NCBI RefSeq assembly: GCF_016595495.1
Contig: NZ_JAENIM010000021.1
Location: forward strand, 124,001 to 188,000
DNA: 64,000 bases
Origin: Persicirhabdus sediminis
GTDB lineage: Bacteria; Verrucomicrobiota; Verrucomicrobiia; Verrucomicrobiales; Akkermansiaceae
Reading direction: 5' to 3'
Numbering within the stretch: position 1 is the first letter of the stretch; each line of letters starts with the position of its first letter. The notes beneath the pieces are model-generated. The model saw nothing but the letters and a program-made list of their open reading frames with translations, had not been told where the DNA came from and made no database searches. Positions 47,400 to 57,134 of the stretch are shown piece after piece. A program made the position numbers and the translations under genes.

Positions 47400-48413
47400 T
47401 CACACGCGCATATAAACGAGGCTATGCCAGGCGATGTAGATGAAGATCATCGGCACCAGCCAGCGGCAAACACGATCGATTTTTTTGCCAATGTGTGCCT
47501 TTTCCTTCTGCGCCAAAACCGCGGTGGTGACAGCTAATATCAAAGTCACAAAAACCAATACGGTAGAGGCAAAAACAAATCCATCCATGCGTGTGATGTA
47601 GGAAATCTGCGGCATCTCTTTGCCAATGGCAAAACGATAGGCAATCAAAGTCAGCATCGACGTTGTCGCCACACCAATCTGTGGACCCGCCTTAGCCGCG
47701 TCCACCCAGAAGACAATCCACGACATCATGACGATGAAAACCAATGGGCTCATCACCTTGACGACATAATAATTCGACGAACGCTGGGCTTGCAGGTCGA
47801 CAATATATACCGAGCGTTTAGGCAGATCATCAAACAAGGCACCTTGGCCGAGCTCGACATCCCAGCCTGTGATTTCCCAGTCGGGCAGTGAGAACTTTTT
47901 GGCTAAGCCAGACGGGAATCGATCATCCTTCACAAGAACCACCGATTGGTGAGAATCGCCAGCTGCCATCATTTTGATGTAAAAGTGCTGTTTATCGAAA
48001 GGGAAGTTACGCAAATCTAGCGGCTGGGACAAATTCCCCCACACTCGCTGAATCATCAATACTTCACCATTCGGGCTCACATTGGCTTCTTCTGGCAGGG
48101 TTTTGAAAAGCTTTTGTTGGTTGGTAATCTGAATCTGCGGGTACCAAATATCACCCAGATCAACAACCACATCGTGCTCAGCGTCGTGCTTGAGCCTATC
48201 GTCCTGCCAGCGCACCATATAAGCATAGTTCACTGTGAAATTCTGTTTTGCAGAATCAATCTGCTCAATATCGATCAGCGCAAAGCGCACCCAGACTTTT
48301 ACCGGGCCGCCACCAGATTCAGGCAGGCTTTTCAGATCGTCCTGATCGAGGTCTAATGCCATCGCCGAGATGCTGGTTAACCACAAAAATAACAATACAA
48401 ATAGACGTTTCAT
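47400..48413 (-). CDS. Pentameric ligand-gated ion channel homologue
   Basis: 337 residues. Signal peptide (about 1-20), extracellular beta-sandwich domain with DIWYPQIQITN (W90 of loop A) and the diagnostic FPFDKQ (137-142), then four membrane helices: M1 (MSPLVFIVMMSWIVFWV), M2 (QIGVATTSMLTLIAYRFAIG), M3 (GFVFASTVLVFVTLILAV) and M4 near the end (WLVPMIFIYIAWHS). It lacks the paired cysteines of animal receptors, as do GLIC and ELIC. The ligand is unknown. It lies alone on the minus strand. Confidence 0.9.
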   Translation of the reverse strand: MKRLFVLLFLWLTSISAMALDLDQDDLKSLPESGGGPVKVWVRFALIDIEQIDSAKQNFTVNYAYMVRWQDDRLKHDAEHDVVVDLGDIWYPQIQITNQQKLFKTLPEEANVSPNGEVLMIQRVWGNLSQPLDLRNFPFDKQHFYIKMMAAGDSHQSVVLVKDDRFPSGLAKKFSLPDWEITGWDVELGQGALFDDLPKRSVYIVDLQAQRSSNYYVVKVMSPLVFIVMMSWIVFWVDAAKAGPQIGVATTSMLTLIAYRFAIGKEMPQISYITRMDGFVFASTVLVFVTLILAVTTAVLAQKEKAHIGKKIDRVCRWLVPMIFIYIAWHSLVYMRV

Positions 48414-48836: not shown

Positions 48837-49691
48837 ATGGCAAACATTGAAATCGTTGGCAACTATCAAGCGCAGTGGGGCGAAGGTCCAATTTGGTGGA
48901 ATGACAAACTTTACTACGTAGATATCGAAAAACACGTCGTTGTTATTTTTGATCCAGCTAGCGGTGAAGAGAAATTTCTCCCTGTAGGTGAACGCGTCGG
49001 CACCGTGGTTCCTCGCGAGTCTGGCGGTTTGGTCATCGCTGGCGACAATGGCCTGTATTTCCTCGATGAAACCACTGGCGAACTCGAACACATTATCGAC
49101 CCTGAGCCAGAGCTAGAAAATAACCGCTTCAATGACGGCAAATGCTCACCAGATGGACGATTTTTTGCAGGCACTATCAGCCTAGTGAAAAAACAAGAAG
49201 CCGCACTCTACCAGCTGGATGCCGAAGGCTCACTGCAGCACGCCTACGGCCCTGTGACCAACTCCAATGGCCTAGCCTGGTCAGCGGACGCATCCACACT
49301 TTATTACATCGACACCCCACGCCGCGCCGTCATCGCCTTTGATTACTCTGAGACCACAGGAGAAATTTCCCGCGAACGCCAAGTCATCAACACTGGCCAC
49401 ATCGACGCCTCACCAGATGGCATGACCATCGATGCCGAAGGGAAACTTTGGGTCGCATTCTGCCACGGATCATGTGTCGTGCGCTTCTGCCCAGAAACTG
49501 GATCCGAACTCCAGCGCGTCGAACTCCCCGTCATGGAAACAACCGCATGTGCCTTTGGCGGCGACAATCTCGACGAACTCTACGTCACCACCGGCATCCA
49601 CGGTAGCATCGAAGAAGAAAATGCTGGCCGACTCTACAAAATCACCGGGCTCGGCGTGAAGGGCATTCCAGCATTCGCCTACAAAGGGTAA
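48837..49691 (+). CDS. SMP-30/gluconolactonase-like beta-propeller protein
   Basis: 284 residues. Family motifs WGEGPIWWNDKLYYVDIE (metal-ligand Glu), NRFNDGKCSPDGRF, NSNGLAWSAD and ASPDGMTIDAEGKLWVAFC are present, giving a six-bladed propeller with a divalent metal at the centre. Members are lactonases, often acting on gluconolactone or related sugar acids. No signal peptide, so cytoplasmic. A terminator follows 20 bases after the stop. The neighbouring genes give no pathway hint. Confidence 0.93.
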   Translation: MANIEIVGNYQAQWGEGPIWWNDKLYYVDIEKHVVVIFDPASGEEKFLPVGERVGTVVPRESGGLVIAGDNGLYFLDETTGELEHIIDPEPELENNRFNDGKCSPDGRFFAGTISLVKKQEAALYQLDAEGSLQHAYGPVTNSNGLAWSADASTLYYIDTPRRAVIAFDYSETTGEISRERQVINTGHIDASPDGMTIDAEGKLWVAFCHGSCVVRFCPETGSELQRVELPVMETTACAFGGDNLDELYVTTGIHGSIEEENAGRLYKITGLGVKGIPAFAYKG

Positions 49692-49800: not shown

Positions 49801-49940
49801 AAAAATAATGGCCGACTCTCTCACCCAAGAAAAGCCGGCCATTACAAACACAAACAATGAAAAAACCCCAATAGTTATGAATGACTATTAAGTGAACGAA
49901 ATGATTTAGGGGAAGGTAAAAACCGTTAGCTAGATATCAG
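49801..49940 (-). ncRNA. Predicted small RNA of the tandem family, copy 1
   Basis: Read on the minus strand: -10-like TATACA (49946-49951), then about 138 nt. It has a self-complementary 5' part (AGCTGATATCTAGCT), a hairpin AATAGT/ACTATT (49870-49889), the box TTTTTTCATTGTTTGTGTTT, and a terminator TAATGGCCGGCT...AGTCGGCCATTA followed by TTTTT. The one non-Watson-Crick position in the terminator stem is G-U on this strand and A-C on the other. Upstream is AGAAAAATG, shared with copies 2 and 3. Confidence 0.6.
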
Positions 49941-50072
49941 CTCGTTGTATACAAGAAGCGTCACGACTAAATCATTTTTCTAAAAAATTACGATTTGTAT
50001 ATCAGATCAAAAACGACCGTACGAACACTAGTTCTGGCACGCTAAATTTGCCCTAAAAAATCAGCTGGATCT

Positions 50073-50209
50073 AAAAAAGGATGGCCAGCTCTCTCACCCC
50101 TGAGAAGCTGGCCATCAAAACACAAACAATGAAAAAACCCCAATAGTTATGAAGACTATCAAGTAAACGAATTGAAATTTAAATAAGGTAAATCCCTTAG
50201 CTAGACATC
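50073..50209 (-). ncRNA. Predicted small RNA of the tandem family, copy 2
   Basis: Same plan as copy 1: -10-like TATACA (50217-50222), hairpin GATAGT/ACTATT, box TTTTTTCATTGTTTGTGTTT, terminator GATGGCCAGCT/AGCTGGCCATC (50080-50116) followed by a six-T run. The terminator loop carries the nested CTCA-GGGG-TGAG. Most similar to copies 1 and 3. Confidence 0.6.
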
Positions 50210-50347
50210 AGCTCGTTGTATACAAGAAGCGTCACCACCAAATCATTTTTCTAAAAAATTCCTCGCAGCCAAAAAATCACCCAAACAGGCGTACCAAACC
50301 AACTTGTGATCAGCAGATTAGCTAGATTCAGCCCGTCCAGCTGGGAC

Positions 50348-50486
50348 AAAAAAAGGCCAGCTCTCTCACCCCTGAGAAGCTGGCCCATATAACACAAACA
50401 ATGAAAAAAACCTAACAGTCTCAATGAACTATCAAGTAAACGAAATGAAGGAAGGCGAGGTATAGTCGCTTAGCTTGGTATCAGCT
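50348..50486 (-). ncRNA. Predicted small RNA of the tandem family, copy 3
   Basis: -10-like TATGAT (50494-50499). The hairpin is GATAGT/ACTGTT, which pairs on the minus strand only by G-U at two positions. The box is TTTTTTTCATTGTTTGTGTT, and the terminator is GGCCAGCT/AGCTGGCC (50355-50385) followed by seven T. Sequence between the promoter and hairpin differs from copies 1 and 2. Confidence 0.6.
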
Positions 50487-50630
50487 CGTTCTAATCATAA
50501 AGCGACACGACTAGACCATTTTTCTAAAAAATCTATATTTCCATACTAACTGGATAAACAACCGTGCAGAAGCGGTTTTTCCCACCGCCCCATCGATGAA
50601 ATATTCCAAGCGGAAAAACCATCAGGGCAC

Positions 50631-50776
50631 AAAAAGAGATGGCCAGCTCTCTCACCCCTGAGAAGCTGACCATCACAAACACAAACAATGAAAAAACCCT
50701 AATAGTTATGGGAGACTACTAAGTAAGCAAAACCAGGAGCTCAATCGAGTATGGGGAGTCGAGTGAACCACCGTGC
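50631..50776 (-). ncRNA. Predicted small RNA of the tandem family, copy 4
   Basis: -10-like TATGTA (50784-50789). The hairpin AGTAGT/ACTATT has one G-U pair; box TTTTTTCATTGTTTGTGTTT. The terminator is GATGGTCAGCT/AGCTGGCCATC (50638-50674), with a U-G pair on the minus strand where the plus strand would have A-C. T-run after it is CTCTTTTT. The 5' half is unlike the other copies. Confidence 0.6.
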
Positions 50777-50860
50777 CCTGCTGTACATAAAAAGCGCCGC
50801 AGCGAAGTTTTTTGTCTGACCAATCTATAAATACCCCAAAAGACCACAAACAAACGTGCC

Positions 50861-51379
50861 AACCAAGCCATTCAAAACGAACAGATAACAAATCCCAAAA
50901 CCGGCACCAATACAATGCCCAAGCCAGCTAGATCCTGCGACGAGAATTGGATGAAATCCCGCTAAATAATGCACGGCATTTTTTCTCCACATGACCGGTG
51001 ATTCCTTATTCCACATAGCATGCAGCTGGAAACAACTTGGGTTTTTCCGGGTTTTTCCCAGCCGCCAGCTGAGCTCACCAACCAGCTGGCAAACCACAAT
51101 CCAGCCAGCTTCCTCAGCGAGCTCGCCACCCCACCAATTCGGCAGGATCACCGCTAAATAATGCACGGCATTTTTTCGTCATACGGCAGCATTACCGCTA
51201 AATAATGCACGGCATTTTTTCTCCACACGACCGGTGAGTCCATATTCCACAAAGCATCCAGCTGGAAACAACTTGGGTTTTTCCGGGTTTTCCCAGCCGC
51301 CAGCTGAGCTCGCCAGCCAGCTGGCAAACCACAATCCAGCCAGCTTTCTCAGCTTTCACCATGCTAAGGAGCAAAAAAA
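50861..51379. repeat. Insertion inside the array with a 159-base direct duplication
   Basis: Between copies 4 and 5 a segment occurs twice (50960-51118 and 51196-51353), differing by point changes and a one-base indel. Its first 26 bases (CGCTAAATAATGCACGGCAT then a T-run) occur a third time alone at 51152-51177. Each head contains AATGC-ACG-GCATT followed by six T, a terminator-like mini-hairpin. No convincing gene; the frames across it do not agree between the two copies. Confidence 0.75.
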
Positions 51380-51481
51380 GGTCCAAAGGACCAAGAGATC
51401 ACAGCCCAGACCAAGGCAGGGCTGAAAGCCTAACGCAGGTCTGGGTGATCGCCCCGAAGAGATCTGAAGCCCCAAAGGGGC
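51380..51481 (-). repeat. REP-like element, copy E (diverged)
   Basis: Same three-hairpin plan as the 22.5-24.3 kb elements, with compensating changes: GGTCC-AAA-GGACC (51380-51392), CCCAGACC (51405-51412) with GGTCTGGG (51438-51445) enclosing GGCT-GAA-AGCC, and GCCCC-AAA-GGGGC (51469-51481). There is no transposase beside it. Confidence 0.75.
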
Positions 51482-51537
51482 GAGAAAAAGCGCACTAGCT
51501 AGCTATGAGTGAGCTCACCAGCGGGCTATTTGAGGGC

Positions 51538-51685
51538 AAAAAGATAGCGGCTAGATCACTCACCCAAGAGAAGCTAGCCGCTACCAAACACAAACAATGA
51601 AAAAAACCAGTAGTCAGCGATGACTCCTAGCACAAGACGTTTGCACTAAACTAAATGAAGACTCCATATCAATCACTTACTACTT
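51538..51685 (-). ncRNA. Predicted small RNA of the tandem family, copy 5
   Basis: -10-like TAGTAC (51693-51698). The middle hairpin may use AGTCA/TGACT. The box TTTTTTTCATTGTTTGTGTTT is kept. The terminator stem is quite different from copies 1-4, GGTAGCGGCTAG/CTAGCCGCTATC (51543-51585), yet fully paired with one G-U, and is followed by TTTTT. This is the best compensatory evidence that the stem, not its sequence, is conserved. Confidence 0.6.
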
Positions 51686-51810
51686 GCGTCTTGTACTAGT
51701 GAAGCGCCACAAAGCATGGTTTTGTTTAAAAAAGCATTTCTTTTTTTCCAACCTAGATTTTCCATTTATCCACGATGATTCAGGGCGCGTCTTTCCAGCT
51801 GGTTTTTGGG

Positions 51811-51968
51811 CAATAAAATGACCGGTACTCAAATAAATGAGGTACCGGCCATCCATACACACAAACAATGAAAAATCTTAACAGTCAATGACTAGACAGA
51901 TTTTAGAACTTCTTCACTGAGCGTTGGGATGATGAATAAACCCTGTCTCACGCGCGCCCAGTTTAGGT
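51811..51968 (-). ncRNA. Predicted small RNA of the tandem family, copy 6
   Basis: Most diverged copy. -10-like TATACT (51976-51981), middle hairpin AGTC/GACT, box reduced to TTTTTCATTGTTTGTGTG, terminator ATGGCCGGTAC/GTACCGGTCAT (51818-51852) with one G-U pair on the minus strand, then TTTTATTG. The remaining bases up to the glycosidase-transferase stop at 52081 show nothing further. Confidence 0.5.
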
Positions 51969-52080
51969 TCTGATTAGTATAAGCATCTGGTCATGAGAAT
52001 TTTTCATATATTGTGATTTTTTTATCAAAAAACACTAAAGGCTCGCCATAACACATGGACAATAGCTACCCGCAAGACAT

Positions 52081-54291
52081 TTAGGCTGATGCAGATAGAG
52101 CTGAAACCATCTCTTTATGTGAGGTGAAATGATCTTTGCCTAAAGCTAAGAAAAACCTCACCTGCACCACATCTGGCTGATTCGGTAGCCAGCACAATAA
52201 GGCGCCAGTGGATGATTTTTCTAAATCCCACAGCTGCGCGCGCTCAGGTCGCACCCAGCCAATTTCCTGCATGCGGGAAAAAAACTGCTCGCGAGACATG
52301 CCAGCTGGCACCGCTAGCTGGCTATCGACGGTGCGATATTTCTCCTGTGGCTCGGCCAGCACCACCGGGTCAGCTAGCTCCAGCTGGCTGCGGAATTTGC
52401 GGCTATGCCAATGGCGTGTCCACCGGCGAATCTTCTGCTGCGCCCACGATACGAGCTGGAGTTTCAGCTGAGATTTGCGTCCATTGTGGCCAGCGGCCAG
52501 CGGACGCATTGGCATCACATACCGATGCAGCTGCTGGTATGGCTCCGCGCCGACGATACCATGATAAATCACCGCATCGGCATCCATGCTGCCCAGATGG
52601 TTTACTGAGCTCATGGCTGCGCCGGTATAGATCACCCCTTCCCAGCTGGCGCCTTGGTTGCGGCGAAATCGCTCAGGGTGCTCACGCATCAATAATGCCT
52701 CGGCTCGCCCGTATCCACGTTGTTGTTTCAGGTAGCGGTAGAGCGTCGTGCGCCGGTGGTGCCAAACAAAAGCCGCGCCGGAAAATCCCAGCTGGTAACC
52801 GGCCTCGCGCAAGCGCCAACAAAAATCCACATCATCACCCGCCACCCAGTAAATAGAGTCAAACCCACCAATTGCCTCAAAGGCATCTCGGCGCACACAC
52901 AAGTTGCAGCCAGGCAAATGCTCGGCCTCCACATCATCCAGCATCACATGCGACGGGCCACCTGGAGCTGACGCCACGATGGCCTGCGCTTCATTCTCCG
53001 CAGCTGGCGGTAAATTCGGTCCACCACAAGCATCCCAGTCTAGCTGGTTAAATCCATGAGCAATCCATTTCAACCACGCTGGATCTGGCTCGCAGTCATC
53101 ATCGGTATAAGCAAAAATCTCCCCCTTCGCCTTGCTGGCGCCAAGGTTACGCGCGGCGCTCAAGCCTGCGTGTGGCTGGCGGATCAGCCGTACTTTGGAA
53201 AATTCACCCACCACCTGCTCGATGTTGTCTTGGGATCCATCGTCCACCACGATCACCTCGTATTTAGCATAATCCAGCTGGCTGAGCGCCTGCAGGCACG
53301 CCTTCATGCGATGCGCGCCATTATGCACACAAACAATCACCGAGATCTTTGGCCAGTAAGCCTTAGGGTAGCGGTCTAACCCAGCCTCAGGGCCGTCCAC
53401 CTTCTTCAGCTGGGCAGTCAAATCAGCCAGCGCTGGTTTGGCTGAGCCATCTCGGCGTTTCAGCCCAAAACTCCAATCATCCACCACTCGTCCACCATTA
53501 AACCAACGGTCAGACCAAGCGTACACCGTCGTCCCAGCTAGCCCAGCTAGCAAGCATTCCTCCAGCTGCCAGCACAGCAGCTCGCTTTGTTCAGCTTCAG
53601 CGTGGCGCTGGGTATCCATGCCCACCTCGGAGATCAAGACGGGGCGGTCGCCAGCCAAATGGTGCAGACGCGGTAAATATCCGGCAAAATCACCGCGGTC
53701 TTCTAAATAAATATTATACGCAGTGAAGTCCGCATTGCTCGGCTCCAGAAACTCGCTTGTTGGGTAGTTGGAATACGCAAATAACAAATGTGGCATCAGC
53801 TCGCGGCCTAGCTCGATCAGCTCTTGCAGCGCATTCACACAGCGGTGCACTTCCAGCCAGCGCGCGAGGTCTGAGTTCAGCTCGTTAGCTACGTAAACTG
53901 CCGCCACCGCTTGATGTTTCCCCCAGCGCAGCAGTGATTTTTTAAACTGCTCACGCACCTCCAGCCAGCTGGATTTGCTGCGCAAAAAATCATCCTGCCA
54001 CGGCCAGGAAACCCCAACAAATACCCATAGGCCATTTGCCAGCGCCGCATCCAATAACTCATCGCTCGGGTCACCATAAATGCGGATCGCATTAAACCCT
54101 GCCGACCGCACCTCAGCAAGTTCACTCGCCGGATCTGGCTGCGGGTCTGGAAACGGACCAAATGTCACACATTTGATAAAAACACGCTGGCCAGCTGAAG
54201 AAAAAAATTTCCCCACCACCGTCAGCCTGTGTCTCACCGCATCATTCACAAAAAATGACCTACCAAAACATCTCGCCATTGTCAGCCGCAA
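52081..54291 (-). CDS. Glycoside hydrolase-like domain fused to a family 2 glycosyltransferase
   Basis: 736 residues. Residues about 25-300 look like a GH2/GH5-type TIM barrel: YVANELNSDL with acid/base E137 and LISEVGMDT with nucleophile E222. Residues about 313-560 are a GT-A family 2 transferase (ISVIVCVHNG, VVDDGS at 349-353, YTDDDCEPD at 396-403, and WVAGDDVDFCWRLREAG). The last 170 residues end in a small domain of unknown kind. No membrane helix or signal peptide is evident, so it appears cytoplasmic. It might both build and trim or transfer a glycan; substrates cannot be read. It is not in an obvious polysaccharide operon. Confidence 0.8.
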   Translation of the reverse strand: MRLTMARCFGRSFFVNDAVRHRLTVVGKFFSSAGQRVFIKCVTFGPFPDPQPDPASELAEVRSAGFNAIRIYGDPSDELLDAALANGLWVFVGVSWPWQDDFLRSKSSWLEVREQFKKSLLRWGKHQAVAAVYVANELNSDLARWLEVHRCVNALQELIELGRELMPHLLFAYSNYPTSEFLEPSNADFTAYNIYLEDRGDFAGYLPRLHHLAGDRPVLISEVGMDTQRHAEAEQSELLCWQLEECLLAGLAGTTVYAWSDRWFNGGRVVDDWSFGLKRRDGSAKPALADLTAQLKKVDGPEAGLDRYPKAYWPKISVIVCVHNGAHRMKACLQALSQLDYAKYEVIVVDDGSQDNIEQVVGEFSKVRLIRQPHAGLSAARNLGASKAKGEIFAYTDDDCEPDPAWLKWIAHGFNQLDWDACGGPNLPPAAENEAQAIVASAPGGPSHVMLDDVEAEHLPGCNLCVRRDAFEAIGGFDSIYWVAGDDVDFCWRLREAGYQLGFSGAAFVWHHRRTTLYRYLKQQRGYGRAEALLMREHPERFRRNQGASWEGVIYTGAAMSSVNHLGSMDADAVIYHGIVGAEPYQQLHRYVMPMRPLAAGHNGRKSQLKLQLVSWAQQKIRRWTRHWHSRKFRSQLELADPVVLAEPQEKYRTVDSQLAVPAGMSREQFFSRMQEIGWVRPERAQLWDLEKSSTGALLCWLPNQPDVVQVRFFLALGKDHFTSHKEMVSALSASA

Positions 54292-54334: not shown

Positions 54335-55093
54335 CTATCGATTGGAAATCTCAAGGCCTCCCACCAATGAATTTTTCACCGCGCAAATCCTGCGCCCTTG
54401 TGCGTAAGCAAAATTCTGAAATACAAGAGAACCCTTTTTGCTTTGCCCACTGAATCTGCTCATCACGGTAAATGATTGAATCGGGTCATCCGATTTCTGG
54501 GAAAATGATAGCCCGCGAGCGACCAAATCATCTTCCGTGGCTCTGCCGCGCGTTTCTTTGATGTAGATATCACAGCAACTTTTCTTCCAATCCATCACCA
54601 TCCATACACAATAATAGGCATCCGGATCTGGCTCCACTACCGAATAAACAAGCTTCGGCTCCTGCTTGCCATTAGGCACAAGAAAATCCACCCCATTGCC
54701 TGATTCAGACTTACGTAACATCAGCCACACTTTCAGATTGTGCGCAAACTTCACCTTCTTCACAGGCACCGTAGATAAACCAATATAATGTAAGAGATCC
54801 TCGTCTAAAATCGAAAATTCATAATAATAGGTAGCCACCTCTCCCGGGAGCACTGGCGGGCACGGGCCGCTCACACCAGCAAGTTTATTGGATTTATTTC
54901 CGCCGATAATAACAGCTTTTTTATCCCATGAAGTATGCAAACAGCTCAGTGGATTCTGAGTCTCTAGCAGCCCCCAACCATCTGGCAATTCAGCATTTTT
55001 TCGGGATCTATGAAATGGCTCATAGACTTCCACTGCCTGTAACAATTGGGGGATTACCAGAAATATAATTGTGCATATATAAAAAGCTCTCAC
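54335..55093 (-). CDS. Secreted protein of a four-member tandem family, paralogue 1
   Basis: 252 residues if started at the GTG at 55093, which gives the signal peptide MRAFYICTIIFLVIPQLLQA; the frame is open to 55129. The mature part has the family motifs EVATYYYEFSILDEDLLHYIG, GNGVDFLV, and YYCVWMVMDWKKSCCDIYIKE followed by RGRATEDDLVA. The all-beta pattern is suggestive of a jelly-roll/concanavalin-like fold. No function known. Paralogues 2-4 follow upstream on the same strand. Confidence 0.65.
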   Translation of the reverse strand: MRAFYICTIIFLVIPQLLQAVEVYEPFHRSRKNAELPDGWGLLETQNPLSCLHTSWDKKAVIIGGNKSNKLAGVSGPCPPVLPGEVATYYYEFSILDEDLLHYIGLSTVPVKKVKFAHNLKVWLMLRKSESGNGVDFLVPNGKQEPKLVYSVVEPDPDAYYCVWMVMDWKKSCCDIYIKETRGRATEDDLVARGLSFSQKSDDPIQSFTVMSRFSGQSKKGSLVFQNFAYAQGRRICAVKNSLVGGLEISNR

Positions 55094-55281
55094 GTTCGTC
55101 TTAATCGTCAATTCTACATGACAGATCAAGGCTAAAACGAATTAATAAATGACGCCCTCACATCGCCATTTGCCTACGAGCTGAACAAGCGTCTTAGAAC
55201 CAAGTGATAATGCAAATCAAACATCGTCCGCATATGCGACGCAGAATCACCATTCTCCAGCTGGCGGAACTTCTCGATGCT

Positions 55282-56040
55282 CTATTTCTGCGAAGACTCA
55301 GGGCCACCAGCTAAGGCGGTATTAATTCCTCCTAGCTGGACGCCTTTGCCATAAGCCCAATTCTTTAGCTCAAGCGAACCGTTTTTGGGTTCAGCACATT
55401 TTTTACACATCACGGCAAATGATTGAACAGGCCCCTTCAATCCCTTGTGAAATGGCACCTTGCGAGCAAGTAAATCATCCTCTGTCGCCTTTCCTCGCTG
55501 GCTTTTTAAATAAACATCAAAACAGCTATTCTTTGAATCCATCACCAGCCAGAGACAATAAGTTACACTCGCATCTGGCCTGAGAGAGGAATAAATTCGC
55601 TTTGCATCCTTTTGCCCAGTGGGAACAAAAATATCCACGCCTTCACCAGTAGATGATTTGCGTAGCAGTAGCCACATGCTCAAAGTACCCGAAGACCTAA
55701 CACCTTCCAAAGGTAGAGATGAATAACCTAAGTAATGGAAAAGTTCCTCATCTAATAGTGAAAACTCACAATAATAGGTAGCCACTTCGCCAGCTTTGAC
55801 CTGCGGACAAGGACGGCTAATTCCAGCAATCTTAGAGGAAATATTCCCACCGATAACAATGGTCTTCTCAAGCCAAGATGTCTCCACAAAATTCAATGGA
55901 GTTTTCCCATCCATCGGCCCCCAAGTATCTGGCAATACAGCCTCTTTGTGGCTGCGCTCAAATAATTCATACACTTCCTGGGCCTGCAGAAATTGGGGGG
56001 TTACCATAAATATAATAACACATATATAAAAAGTCCTCAC
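55282..56040 (-). CDS. Secreted protein of the tandem family, paralogue 2
   Basis: 252 residues from GTG 56040 (signal peptide MRTFYICVIIFMVTPQFLQA; the frame is open to 56091). Closest to paralogue 1: even the signal peptides and the bases before the GTG (TTAAGACGA) match, so this pair is the most recent duplication. Family motifs EVATYYCEFSLLDEELFHYLG, GEGVDIFV and YCLWLVMDSKNSCFDVYLKSQRGKATEDDLLA. Two extra cysteines near the C-terminus (CKKC). Confidence 0.65.
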   Translation of the reverse strand: MRTFYICVIIFMVTPQFLQAQEVYELFERSHKEAVLPDTWGPMDGKTPLNFVETSWLEKTIVIGGNISSKIAGISRPCPQVKAGEVATYYCEFSLLDEELFHYLGYSSLPLEGVRSSGTLSMWLLLRKSSTGEGVDIFVPTGQKDAKRIYSSLRPDASVTYCLWLVMDSKNSCFDVYLKSQRGKATEDDLLARKVPFHKGLKGPVQSFAVMCKKCAEPKNGSLELKNWAYGKGVQLGGINTALAGGPESSQK

Positions 56041-56279
56041 GCTCGTCTTAATCGCCAATTGTGAATGACAGATCAAGAGCAAAAGAAACAATGAATGACA
56101 TCGTGTTTCAAATTGAAAATTTAGTTAACAAGCAAACACTTAAAGCTCAACCCGTAACACAAACGAACCATAGTATGAATCCCTGTGACTGTTTTATCCA
56201 AGGCAAGCTACACAAATCAGCCACATCGACTTAGAGAAGCTGCACGCCCCACCAAAAGACAGAAAAACCTGTCTATTTA

Positions 56280-57005
56280 TTAAAATCGATTCAGCTGGCA
56301 ACCTTTCGCAAAAGCTAAATTTTTCAGCAAAATAGCACCACTTTTCAGCTCACTACTACGCTTGCTCATCACCGCGACAGTTTGCAGATCACGCTTCGCT
56401 ATTTTATTAAAATCCACTCCTTTGGCTACCAAATCATCTTCACTTGCCGCACCAGTCCCAGCCTCTTTCAGATAGACATCATAGGTGAATGCCACGGTAT
56501 CTAAAACCAGCCACATCGAATAATACACCCCTTCAGCCGGCTCCATGTTGGCTGAAATCACACTCGATTTCCCATCAGGCAAAGCAGCTAACAAATCCAC
56601 CCCAAAACCACTGGATGAGTTGCGCAGGATCACACTGGCCTTCAAGTTACTCTCATCCTTCATCGCCTTTGCCAGAGTTGAGGAAATGCCAATGTAATGA
56701 TTCACTTGGTCGTGCTGCAGCGAAAACTCAAAATAATAAGTGCCGACTTCGCCAATATTGAGCATTGGCACCTGACGCACCCAGCCAGCTAGGTCGTCTG
56801 ATCGATTACCGCCAAAAACCAAAACCTGCGCATCCCAATCCGTGCGCGTAGGCGTGATCCTCGCAGACTGGGACATCGGCGCCCAGCCATTTGGCAGTTC
56901 GCCACCTTTACACTTGGTAGAAAAATCCTCGTACAACTCGCTAGCTAAAGAGGTAATACTACACAACGGCAGGAAAATAATTGCATATATGAACTTCAAA
57001 CTCAC
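56280..57005 (-). CDS. Secreted protein of the tandem family, paralogue 3
   Basis: 241 residues from GTG 57005, giving the signal peptide MSLKFIYAIIFLPLCSITSLA; a TTG at 57032 is also possible but gives a poorer signal. Motifs EVGTYYFEFSLQHDQVNHYIG, GFGVDLLA and YYSMWLVLDTVAFTYDVYLKEAG. Shorter C-terminus than paralogues 1 and 2. Confidence 0.65.
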   Translation of the reverse strand: MSLKFIYAIIFLPLCSITSLASELYEDFSTKCKGGELPNGWAPMSQSARITPTRTDWDAQVLVFGGNRSDDLAGWVRQVPMLNIGEVGTYYFEFSLQHDQVNHYIGISSTLAKAMKDESNLKASVILRNSSSGFGVDLLAALPDGKSSVISANMEPAEGVYYSMWLVLDTVAFTYDVYLKEAGTGAASEDDLVAKGVDFNKIAKRDLQTVAVMSKRSSELKSGAILLKNLAFAKGCQLNRF

Positions 57006-57134
57006 ACATATGTAATCGCTAACTATTCTCAATTCAGCAAGTTAAAAACCTCATCCAGCTAGCTAGAGCAACATCACATGACATTTACCGTCAATTTATA
57101 ATGAGGCGCTCTTCATGAAAGTCCCACAACGCAA

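Follow-up and report, generated by a model that had tools for sequence, protein, structure and literature searches.

The window analysed here is a stretch of 64,000 nucleotides (nt) from Persicirhabdus sediminis (G000:C21:124001-188000), whose genome comprises 4.17 Mb in 47 contigs and whose assembly is 96.7% complete. An array of six related units occupies the minus strand at 49801-51971, within a 2.4-kb intergenic stretch flanked by an SMP-30/gluconolactonase-family gene (48837-49691, plus strand) and by a gene with a glycosyltransferase family 2 domain (52081-54291, minus strand). The 16-mer TTTTTCATTGTTTGTG has exact matches at 49849, 50121, 50393, 50680, 51589, and 51860. With up to three mismatches it matches 8 times in the window, compared to a mean of 1.07 (standard deviation, sd, 1.04) in 100 shuffles, and with up to one mismatch these six sites are the only ones in the whole genome. 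From the sequence, the six units are best read as sibling small RNAs (sRNAs), with a probability of about 0.75. Each has a common plan from 5' to 3': a hairpin P1 (5' hairpin region of 54-67 nt), a short AGU/ACU hairpin (P2), a 17-nt box UUUUUCAUUGUUUGUGU, and a terminator-like hairpin (P3). The features of the locus are as follows.

49801 to 49948, minus strand: unit 1, predicted RNA of about 148 nt with inferred ends; P1 49948-49895, P2 region 49894-49865, box 49864-49848, P3 and T-rich end to 49801.
49949 to 49990, minus strand: candidate promoter region of unit 1, with a TTTTTTAGAAAAATG tract, GTGACGCTT, and a weak -10-like TTGTAT.
50073 to 50219, minus strand: unit 2, predicted RNA of about 147 nt; P1 50219-50166, P2 region 50165-50137, box 50136-50120, P3 and T-run to 50073.
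50348 to 50492, minus strand: unit 3, predicted RNA of about 145 nt, P1 statistically weak; P1 50492-50439, P2 region 50438-50409, box 50408-50392, P3 and T-run to 50348.
50631 to 50784, minus strand: unit 4, predicted RNA of about 154 nt; P1 50784-50727, P2 region 50726-50696, box 50695-50679, P3 and T-rich end to 50631.
50959 to 51360, no strand assigned: part of the insertion between units 4 and 5, short repeats with 13 genome matches including itself.
51538 to 51694, minus strand: unit 5, predicted RNA of about 157 nt; P1 51694-51632 (arms ACAAGACG/CGUCUUGU), P2 region 51631-51605, box 51604-51588, P3 and T-rich end to 51538.
51812 to 51971, minus strand: unit 6, predicted RNA of about 160 nt, P1 statistically weak; P1 51971-51905, P2 region 51904-51876, box 51875-51859, P3 and T-rich end to about 51812.

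Six minus-strand units, four of them about 270 bases apart and two more beyond an insertion, had been described in an earlier note on this DNA. Both the 16-mer matches and the alignments recover them, with steps from box to box of 272, 272, 287, 909, and 271. The 909-base step contains the insertion, which consists of short repeats with pieces found elsewhere in the genome.

The structure is predicted in all six units. Each 150-nt piece folds better than its shuffles (z from -2.8 to -4.6), and the P3 region folds at -22 to -28 kcal/mol and is followed by T-rich sequence on the minus strand. The arms of P1 are AACGAG/UUCGUU in units 1-3 and AGAAC/GUUCU in unit 6. When P1 is folded alone, 1, 0, 36, 9, 3, and 77 of 500 shuffles fold equally well in units 1 to 6, respectively; the support is good in four units and weak in units 3 and 6, with the ends of P1 placed where the arms pair, a choice that favours structure. 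The region before the AGT/ACT hairpin does differ between copies, as the note had said, but in each of them it is itself able to fold as P1. The box is unpaired in the folds of units 1-5, and in unit 6 its 5' U's are partly paired. It is not shortened in copy 6, as had been thought: the core TTTTTCATTGTTTGTGT is intact in 6/6 copies, and only the preceding base is A rather than T there. Nor do copies 2-4 share one terminator stem throughout. Copy 4 departs from it, with the 5' arm GGTCAGCT (containing a G-U pair) instead of GGCCAGCT.

The 17-base box is identical in all 15 copy pairs. Identity in P1 is 71-80% in the three pairs among copies 1-3 and 43-59% in the 12 pairs that include copy 4, 5, or 6, and in the 60 bases upstream of the units it is 50-76%. 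Changes on both sides are found in 8 of 25 stem pairs (seven of them in P3) compared to 2.7 in shuffles, and none of 500 shuffles reaches this number. The claim that the letters of the terminator stem change with pairing kept is borne out, compensatory changes being above the shuffle level. Paired cells make up 89.9% in the stems, compared to 83.1% when shuffled and 32-50% when the partners are slid. These values are based on six related rows, and kinship can inflate shuffle results. Judging from the slid control and from the different stems of units 5 and 6, however, kinship is probably not the whole story of the covariation. With the box invariant, P1 diverged yet still folding, and P3 compensated, it looks like the RNA is under selection.

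It is also conceivable that the array arose by tandem duplications of an intergenic region with a terminator and includes no regulatory RNA, being one of the many intergenic repeats of this genome. Two such arrays were met by way of a relaxed complement pattern of the box and were set aside as different repeats, not members of the family. One (L188 2264-3386, G000:C44) has four tandem intergenic copies with a period of 323, each with the hairpin GAGCGTC...GGCGCTC followed by TTTTTT. The other (L189 2485-5616, G000:C47) is a tightly packed set of nested intergenic repeats, about 35 bases per unit, that surrounds a small gene; a 34-base word occurs 18 times there. The existence of tandem intergenic repeats elsewhere, in one case with a terminator-like hairpin in each copy, is in line with mere duplication, and so is the insertion between units 4 and 5, which consists of repeats. 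The C44 copies, however, are 89-95% alike throughout, as young duplications are, while the six units have drifted to about 50% identity in P1 with the box unchanged and the stems compensated. We consider mere duplication quite unlikely.

Small genes on the plus strand were also considered. Frames of 27 codons run through hairpin and box in units 1 and 4 and are similar (MADSLTQEK... in unit 1 and MASSLTPEK... in unit 4). Between the two, by eye, six codons change the amino acid and three are silent. Units 3 and 5 have no such frame with a start, the frame of unit 2 ends differently after 21 codons, and unit 6 is different. Moreover, the T-rich tail of the hairpin lies on the minus strand. Tandem type I antitoxin RNAs of the Sib/Ldr type have a conserved frame for a small hydrophobic peptide in each repeat; among the frames of at least 8 codons on both strands, none is common to all six units. 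Plus-strand peptides were rejected since the frame is not present across the units, and this explanation has hardly any chance of being right.

Signals for transcription are less uniform than the RNA structure. The note had assigned the same upstream A-tract and -10-like box to all units. The TTTTTTAGAAAAATG tract and its flank are common to copies 1-3 only and are diverged before units 4-6; by eye, GCTT and a TATGAT/TATACT-like hexamer do precede P1, most clearly in copies 3 and 6. A simple terminator scan gave 4 sites compared to 3.7 in shuffles, and none of them is the P3 hairpin. The terminators are called from the folds, and their T-tracts are interrupted in several copies.

To look for relatives, a covariance model (R1) was built from the six units, which it scores at 73-111 bits. 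The next candidates in the same genome, three lesser matches, score 16.8-20.4 bits. Among 58 relatives R1 matched only the genome it came from, and among 386 genomes of the order it matched six at E 0.05, of which only the same genome gave strong matches. Note that R1 searches over more than 40 genomes use stricter filters, by which weak matches are lost, and that the lists searched include no genome of the same genus. Apart from the genome of origin, each of the five matching genomes has a single match (25.4-32.2 bits, E 0.0013-0.033). Four of these sites are terminators, located after an rpsR-like gene (in two genomes of one genus), an rpmB-like gene, and a gene with a PEP-CTERM-like end (names assigned by eye), and the fifth is without a P3 hairpin. 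They are given no weight because about 19 of 386 genomes are expected to match by chance at E 0.05. In the two genomes with the rpsR-like gene, which belong to a related genus, TTTCATTGTTTCATTGGTTTGTGTTTTTGG is found immediately before a strong hairpin (L192 749-843, plus strand; L193 1501-1592, minus strand), possibly a chance look-alike of box and terminator. The earlier note had named, as one outcome that would count against it, a lack of matches outside the locus together with a lack of covariation; the outside matches are indeed unconvincing, but the covariation stands above the shuffles.

The box by itself is found more widely. With up to one mismatch it occurs in 67 of the 386 genomes, the present one included, and there is no second cluster of boxes among the matches listed. 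A 17-mer scan gave at least 116 stretches in genome contigs and 32 in viral contigs, and R1 reached 34.1 bits at most on these 148 loci, even though they were preselected for the box. Two of the loci were rejected on inspection by eye. In L088, where the box stands before a terminator-like hairpin, the opposite strand is the start of a frame MKKYHLL..., and in L111, from a Verrucomicrobiaceae metagenome-assembled genome, the box is the start of an EF-hand-like exported protein. Searches of plasmids and phages gave no match to the family. Rfam at gathering scores identified only three tRNAs in the window and no family for the units. In the literature other than subscription papers and preprints, including the accessible part of a review (PMC9029176), we found no described family of this kind in Verrucomicrobiota. 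On the best reading of these sequences, the RNA family appears to be lineage-restricted.

What the box may do is suggested by its reverse complement, ACACAAACA-AUG-AAAAA, which reads like a start region. Shine-Dalgarno (SD)-like tetramers are found at 5.5% of 346 sampled gene starts, and the sampled starts are A-rich, with AUG often followed by A. Akkermansia is described as SD-scarce (PMC10783764). Pairing between box and start regions was examined in two samples, taking -12 kcal/mol or better as strong, with genes called as the longest frames from the first ATG and with a crude signal-peptide rule devised for this analysis. The first sample consists of 400 kb and the window, and some of its stretches were chosen knowing that candidates lay there. 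The second is an independent 400 kb laid out on a grid. In the first, 16 of 329 starts pair strongly compared to 8.5 (sd 3.7) for shuffled boxes, 5 of 150 of which reach this number, and 6 of 329 internal segments do so. In the second, strong pairing is found at 15 of 257 starts (8.6 for shuffled boxes, sd 3.2; 8 of 200 reach) and in 2 of 257 internal segments (4.3 for shuffled boxes). Pooled, the starts amount to 31 of 586 compared to 16.9 (2 of 120 reach) and signal-peptide-like genes to 17 of 200 compared to 5.4 (1 of 120 reaches); the pairing of the latter is stronger than that of the remaining 386 genes (P 0.003). A reduced set was also made by dropping six stretches that hold sites already listed as loci, while other stretches also hold some such sites. 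It has 23 of 503 starts compared to 13.9 (5 of 150) and 13 of 168 signal-peptide-like genes compared to 4.4 (1 of 150). With U6 kept and the rest of the box shuffled, the same 23 and 13 compare to 8.7 (5 of 150) and 2.9 (2 of 150). The mean energy in the reduced set is not significant in either control (20 and 11 of 150). Overall, strong pairing exceeds that of shuffled boxes in the samples 1.7-1.9 times at starts and about three times for signal-peptide-like genes.

Candidate target sites with up to three mismatches were also listed: 54 sites, at least one counted twice, in 53 loci. Twenty-five rows (24 distinct) are at the starts of frames of at least 70 codons, and many of these 24 carry signal-peptide-like N-termini. 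The 24 of 54 is no rate, because 95 non-self sites exist and the choice of 29 of the 53 loci was made by eye, for an ATG. The leading candidates are L169, a CAP-domain lipoprotein; L171 and L174, which are exported and have no Pfam family; L165, with Ig-like domains; and L269 and L278, which look exported. L168 (TPR) looks cytoplasmic, and L164 has no family.

Based on these sequences, the chances are about even that the array is a tandem family of trans-acting sRNAs whose shared seed covers the starts of exported-protein mRNAs and blocks them. Several observations weigh against this proposal. Among the genomes searched the family is found in this one only. A sigma-70 scan gave 3 sites on both strands compared to 3.5 in shuffles and so lends no support to promoters. 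There is no excess of pairing in the first sample at a cut-off of -10 (37 compared to 32.3; 48 of 150 reach), and the mean pairing energy in the independent sample is not significant, with 46 of 200 shuffles as low. No perfect target site was found in the genome, where the best non-self sites have 2 mismatches in 16. With up to three mismatches the complement of the box has 95 non-self sites genome-wide; a permuted pattern that keeps the ATGAAAAA end has 86. Read backwards, the two patterns have 72 and 52 sites. The pairing cut-offs are uncorrected for repeated testing and the gene calls are crude. To some degree, any U-rich strand suits A-rich AUG-AAA starts, although the excess persists when U6 is kept in the shuffled boxes.

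A different role for the box would be as a site for protein binding or as a sponge, bound by an RRM or cold-shock protein or by another RNA, rather than as an mRNA seed. Pairing alone would not call for 17 bases without variation, RNA-binding proteins are well served by U-rich single strands, and the genome-wide excess of complementary sites is small. There is also an RRM protein. Only one protein with an RRM_1 domain, and with a single such domain, was found in the genome (344 residues; L282 1126-2160, minus strand); its N-terminus is long and N/R/Q-rich, its C-terminus acidic and A/E-rich. Against this role, the complement of the box has exactly the form of a start region, and the excess of strong pairing is seen at starts and not inside genes. 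It is an unlikely explanation, though one to be kept in mind. Hfq and ProQ were not found in the assembly by a search that found Hfq in 5 and ProQ in 1 of 14 control genomes.

As for the variable 5' parts, the earlier note had suggested siblings with different targets. Were this the case, the siblings would act mainly through these parts and the box would be a common handle. The P1 sequences do differ strongly, but the variable parts mostly fold as closed hairpins (less clearly in units 3 and 6), and the exposed element is the invariant one. This makes action through the 5' parts very unlikely. Sibling sRNAs remain the best reading of the repeated plan, the exposed box, and the compensated stems; the part of the suggestion about different targets is not favoured.

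The closest known parallel is found in Bacteroides thetaiotaomicron. In PMC11697453, FopS/GibS are described as paralogous sRNAs with an exposed shared seed, which binds near the start codon of surface-protein (SusC homolog) mRNAs and blocks translation. They act in a setting without SD sequences, Hfq, and ProQ (PMC7366714), where the RRM-1 protein RbpB counteracts FopS (PMC11697453). As in that system, the present paralogs share an exposed box in an SD-poor genome where no Hfq or ProQ was found and an RRM protein is present. Unlike the array, FopS/GibS have 14 members at multiple loci in another phylum, with no tandem array in the parts of the description available, and a single-stranded 5' stretch with a terminator but without P1 and P2. 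The two were compared by description, seed letters excluded. No FopS-named family is among the Rfam results for the units, either at gathering scores or at permissive E up to 5. By analogy, the best reading is that the six units may work like FopS/GibS without being members.

A second Bacteroides likeness is to RF04177 (BTnc201/MasB). Five of the six units can be aligned to it in permissive mode, over positions 1-99 of the model and with 19.2-30.6 bits (best E 0.0076), and no unit attains the gathering score of 105 bits. A control of 60 kb of other sequence from the same genome gave no match at E up to 10. The matches of the units are not independent because the units are paralogs. The box falls on the single strand of RF04177 in units 1, 2, and 4, but not in units 3 and 6. 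Two units also align with RF04179 in permissive mode, below its gathering score of 81.9. According to PMC10994844, MasB likewise has a 5' hairpin, a U/G-rich single strand with UUGUUUGUG, and a terminator, and its positions 41-50, important for its pairing, fall near that strand. It differs in being one narrowly conserved sRNA that pairs about 40 nt inside the coding region of its target. The resemblance is taken as similar build and not as membership. A looser likeness is to LhrC1-5 of Listeria monocytogenes, an sRNA in several copies whose redundant exposed sites hinder the translation of a surface-protein mRNA, as described in PMC4132741; LhrC has three CU-rich sites per RNA, however, and belongs to a different bacterial group. 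The LhrC model of Rfam gave no match at gathering scores or at E up to 5. In Neisseria, NmsR/NgncR_162-163 are reportedly neighbouring sibling sRNAs in two copies, a likeness by description alone. The array has the features of tandem sibling sRNAs, namely homologous units, terminator-like ends of their own (the terminators known from folds only), and a shared exposed seed; membership in any of the families tested is not shown. As an RNA family it would be new, though of a type already known.

Other features of the window are mentioned here for their own interest. A gene at 47400-48413 (minus strand) encodes a bacterial relative of Cys-loop ligand-gated ion channels, in which Neur_chan_LBD and Neur_chan_memb both exceed their cut-offs. 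Upstream of the glycosyltransferase gene, three adjoining look-alike exported proteins of 250-269 residues are encoded at 54335-57032 (minus strand), with no Pfam family at E 0.001. Among hexamers and octamers, CCAGCT/AGCTGG-type words are the most frequent (e.g., CCAGCTGG, 34 times in 64 kb), and they also occur inside terminators and repeats; they are not ranked as over-represented in the window by a Markov comparison.

In the proposed mechanism, each of the six paralogous trans-acting sRNAs of about 145-160 nt would have a promoter of its own, weak or regulated, immediately ahead of P1 and would be separately terminated, with P1 and P3 guarding the RNA ends. The box UUUUUUCAUUGUUUGUGU would pair with start-codon regions, chiefly in the mRNAs of exported proteins that start with MKK or MKN, and the pairing would block ribosome entry and hence repress translation. 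Since the genome has few SD-like sites, repression by covering the A-rich start itself would come naturally. With their diverged upstream regions, the six copies may serve a single set of targets by adding dosage and perhaps by responding to different triggers, and the RRM protein is a candidate partner. More tentatively, and with considerable doubt, the array might be a generic 'anti-start' device whose seed is antisense to the start context of exported proteins as such and whose partner is the RRM protein rather than Hfq or ProQ. If this is true, such an array could turn down much of the secretome at once. What is known of sRNA action in bacteria that hardly use SD sequences and have neither Hfq nor ProQ comes mainly from Bacteroides. 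The six natural variants, whose stems have drifted and whose box has not changed, amount to a mutagenesis series already at hand, by which the idea of start blocking is directly testable.

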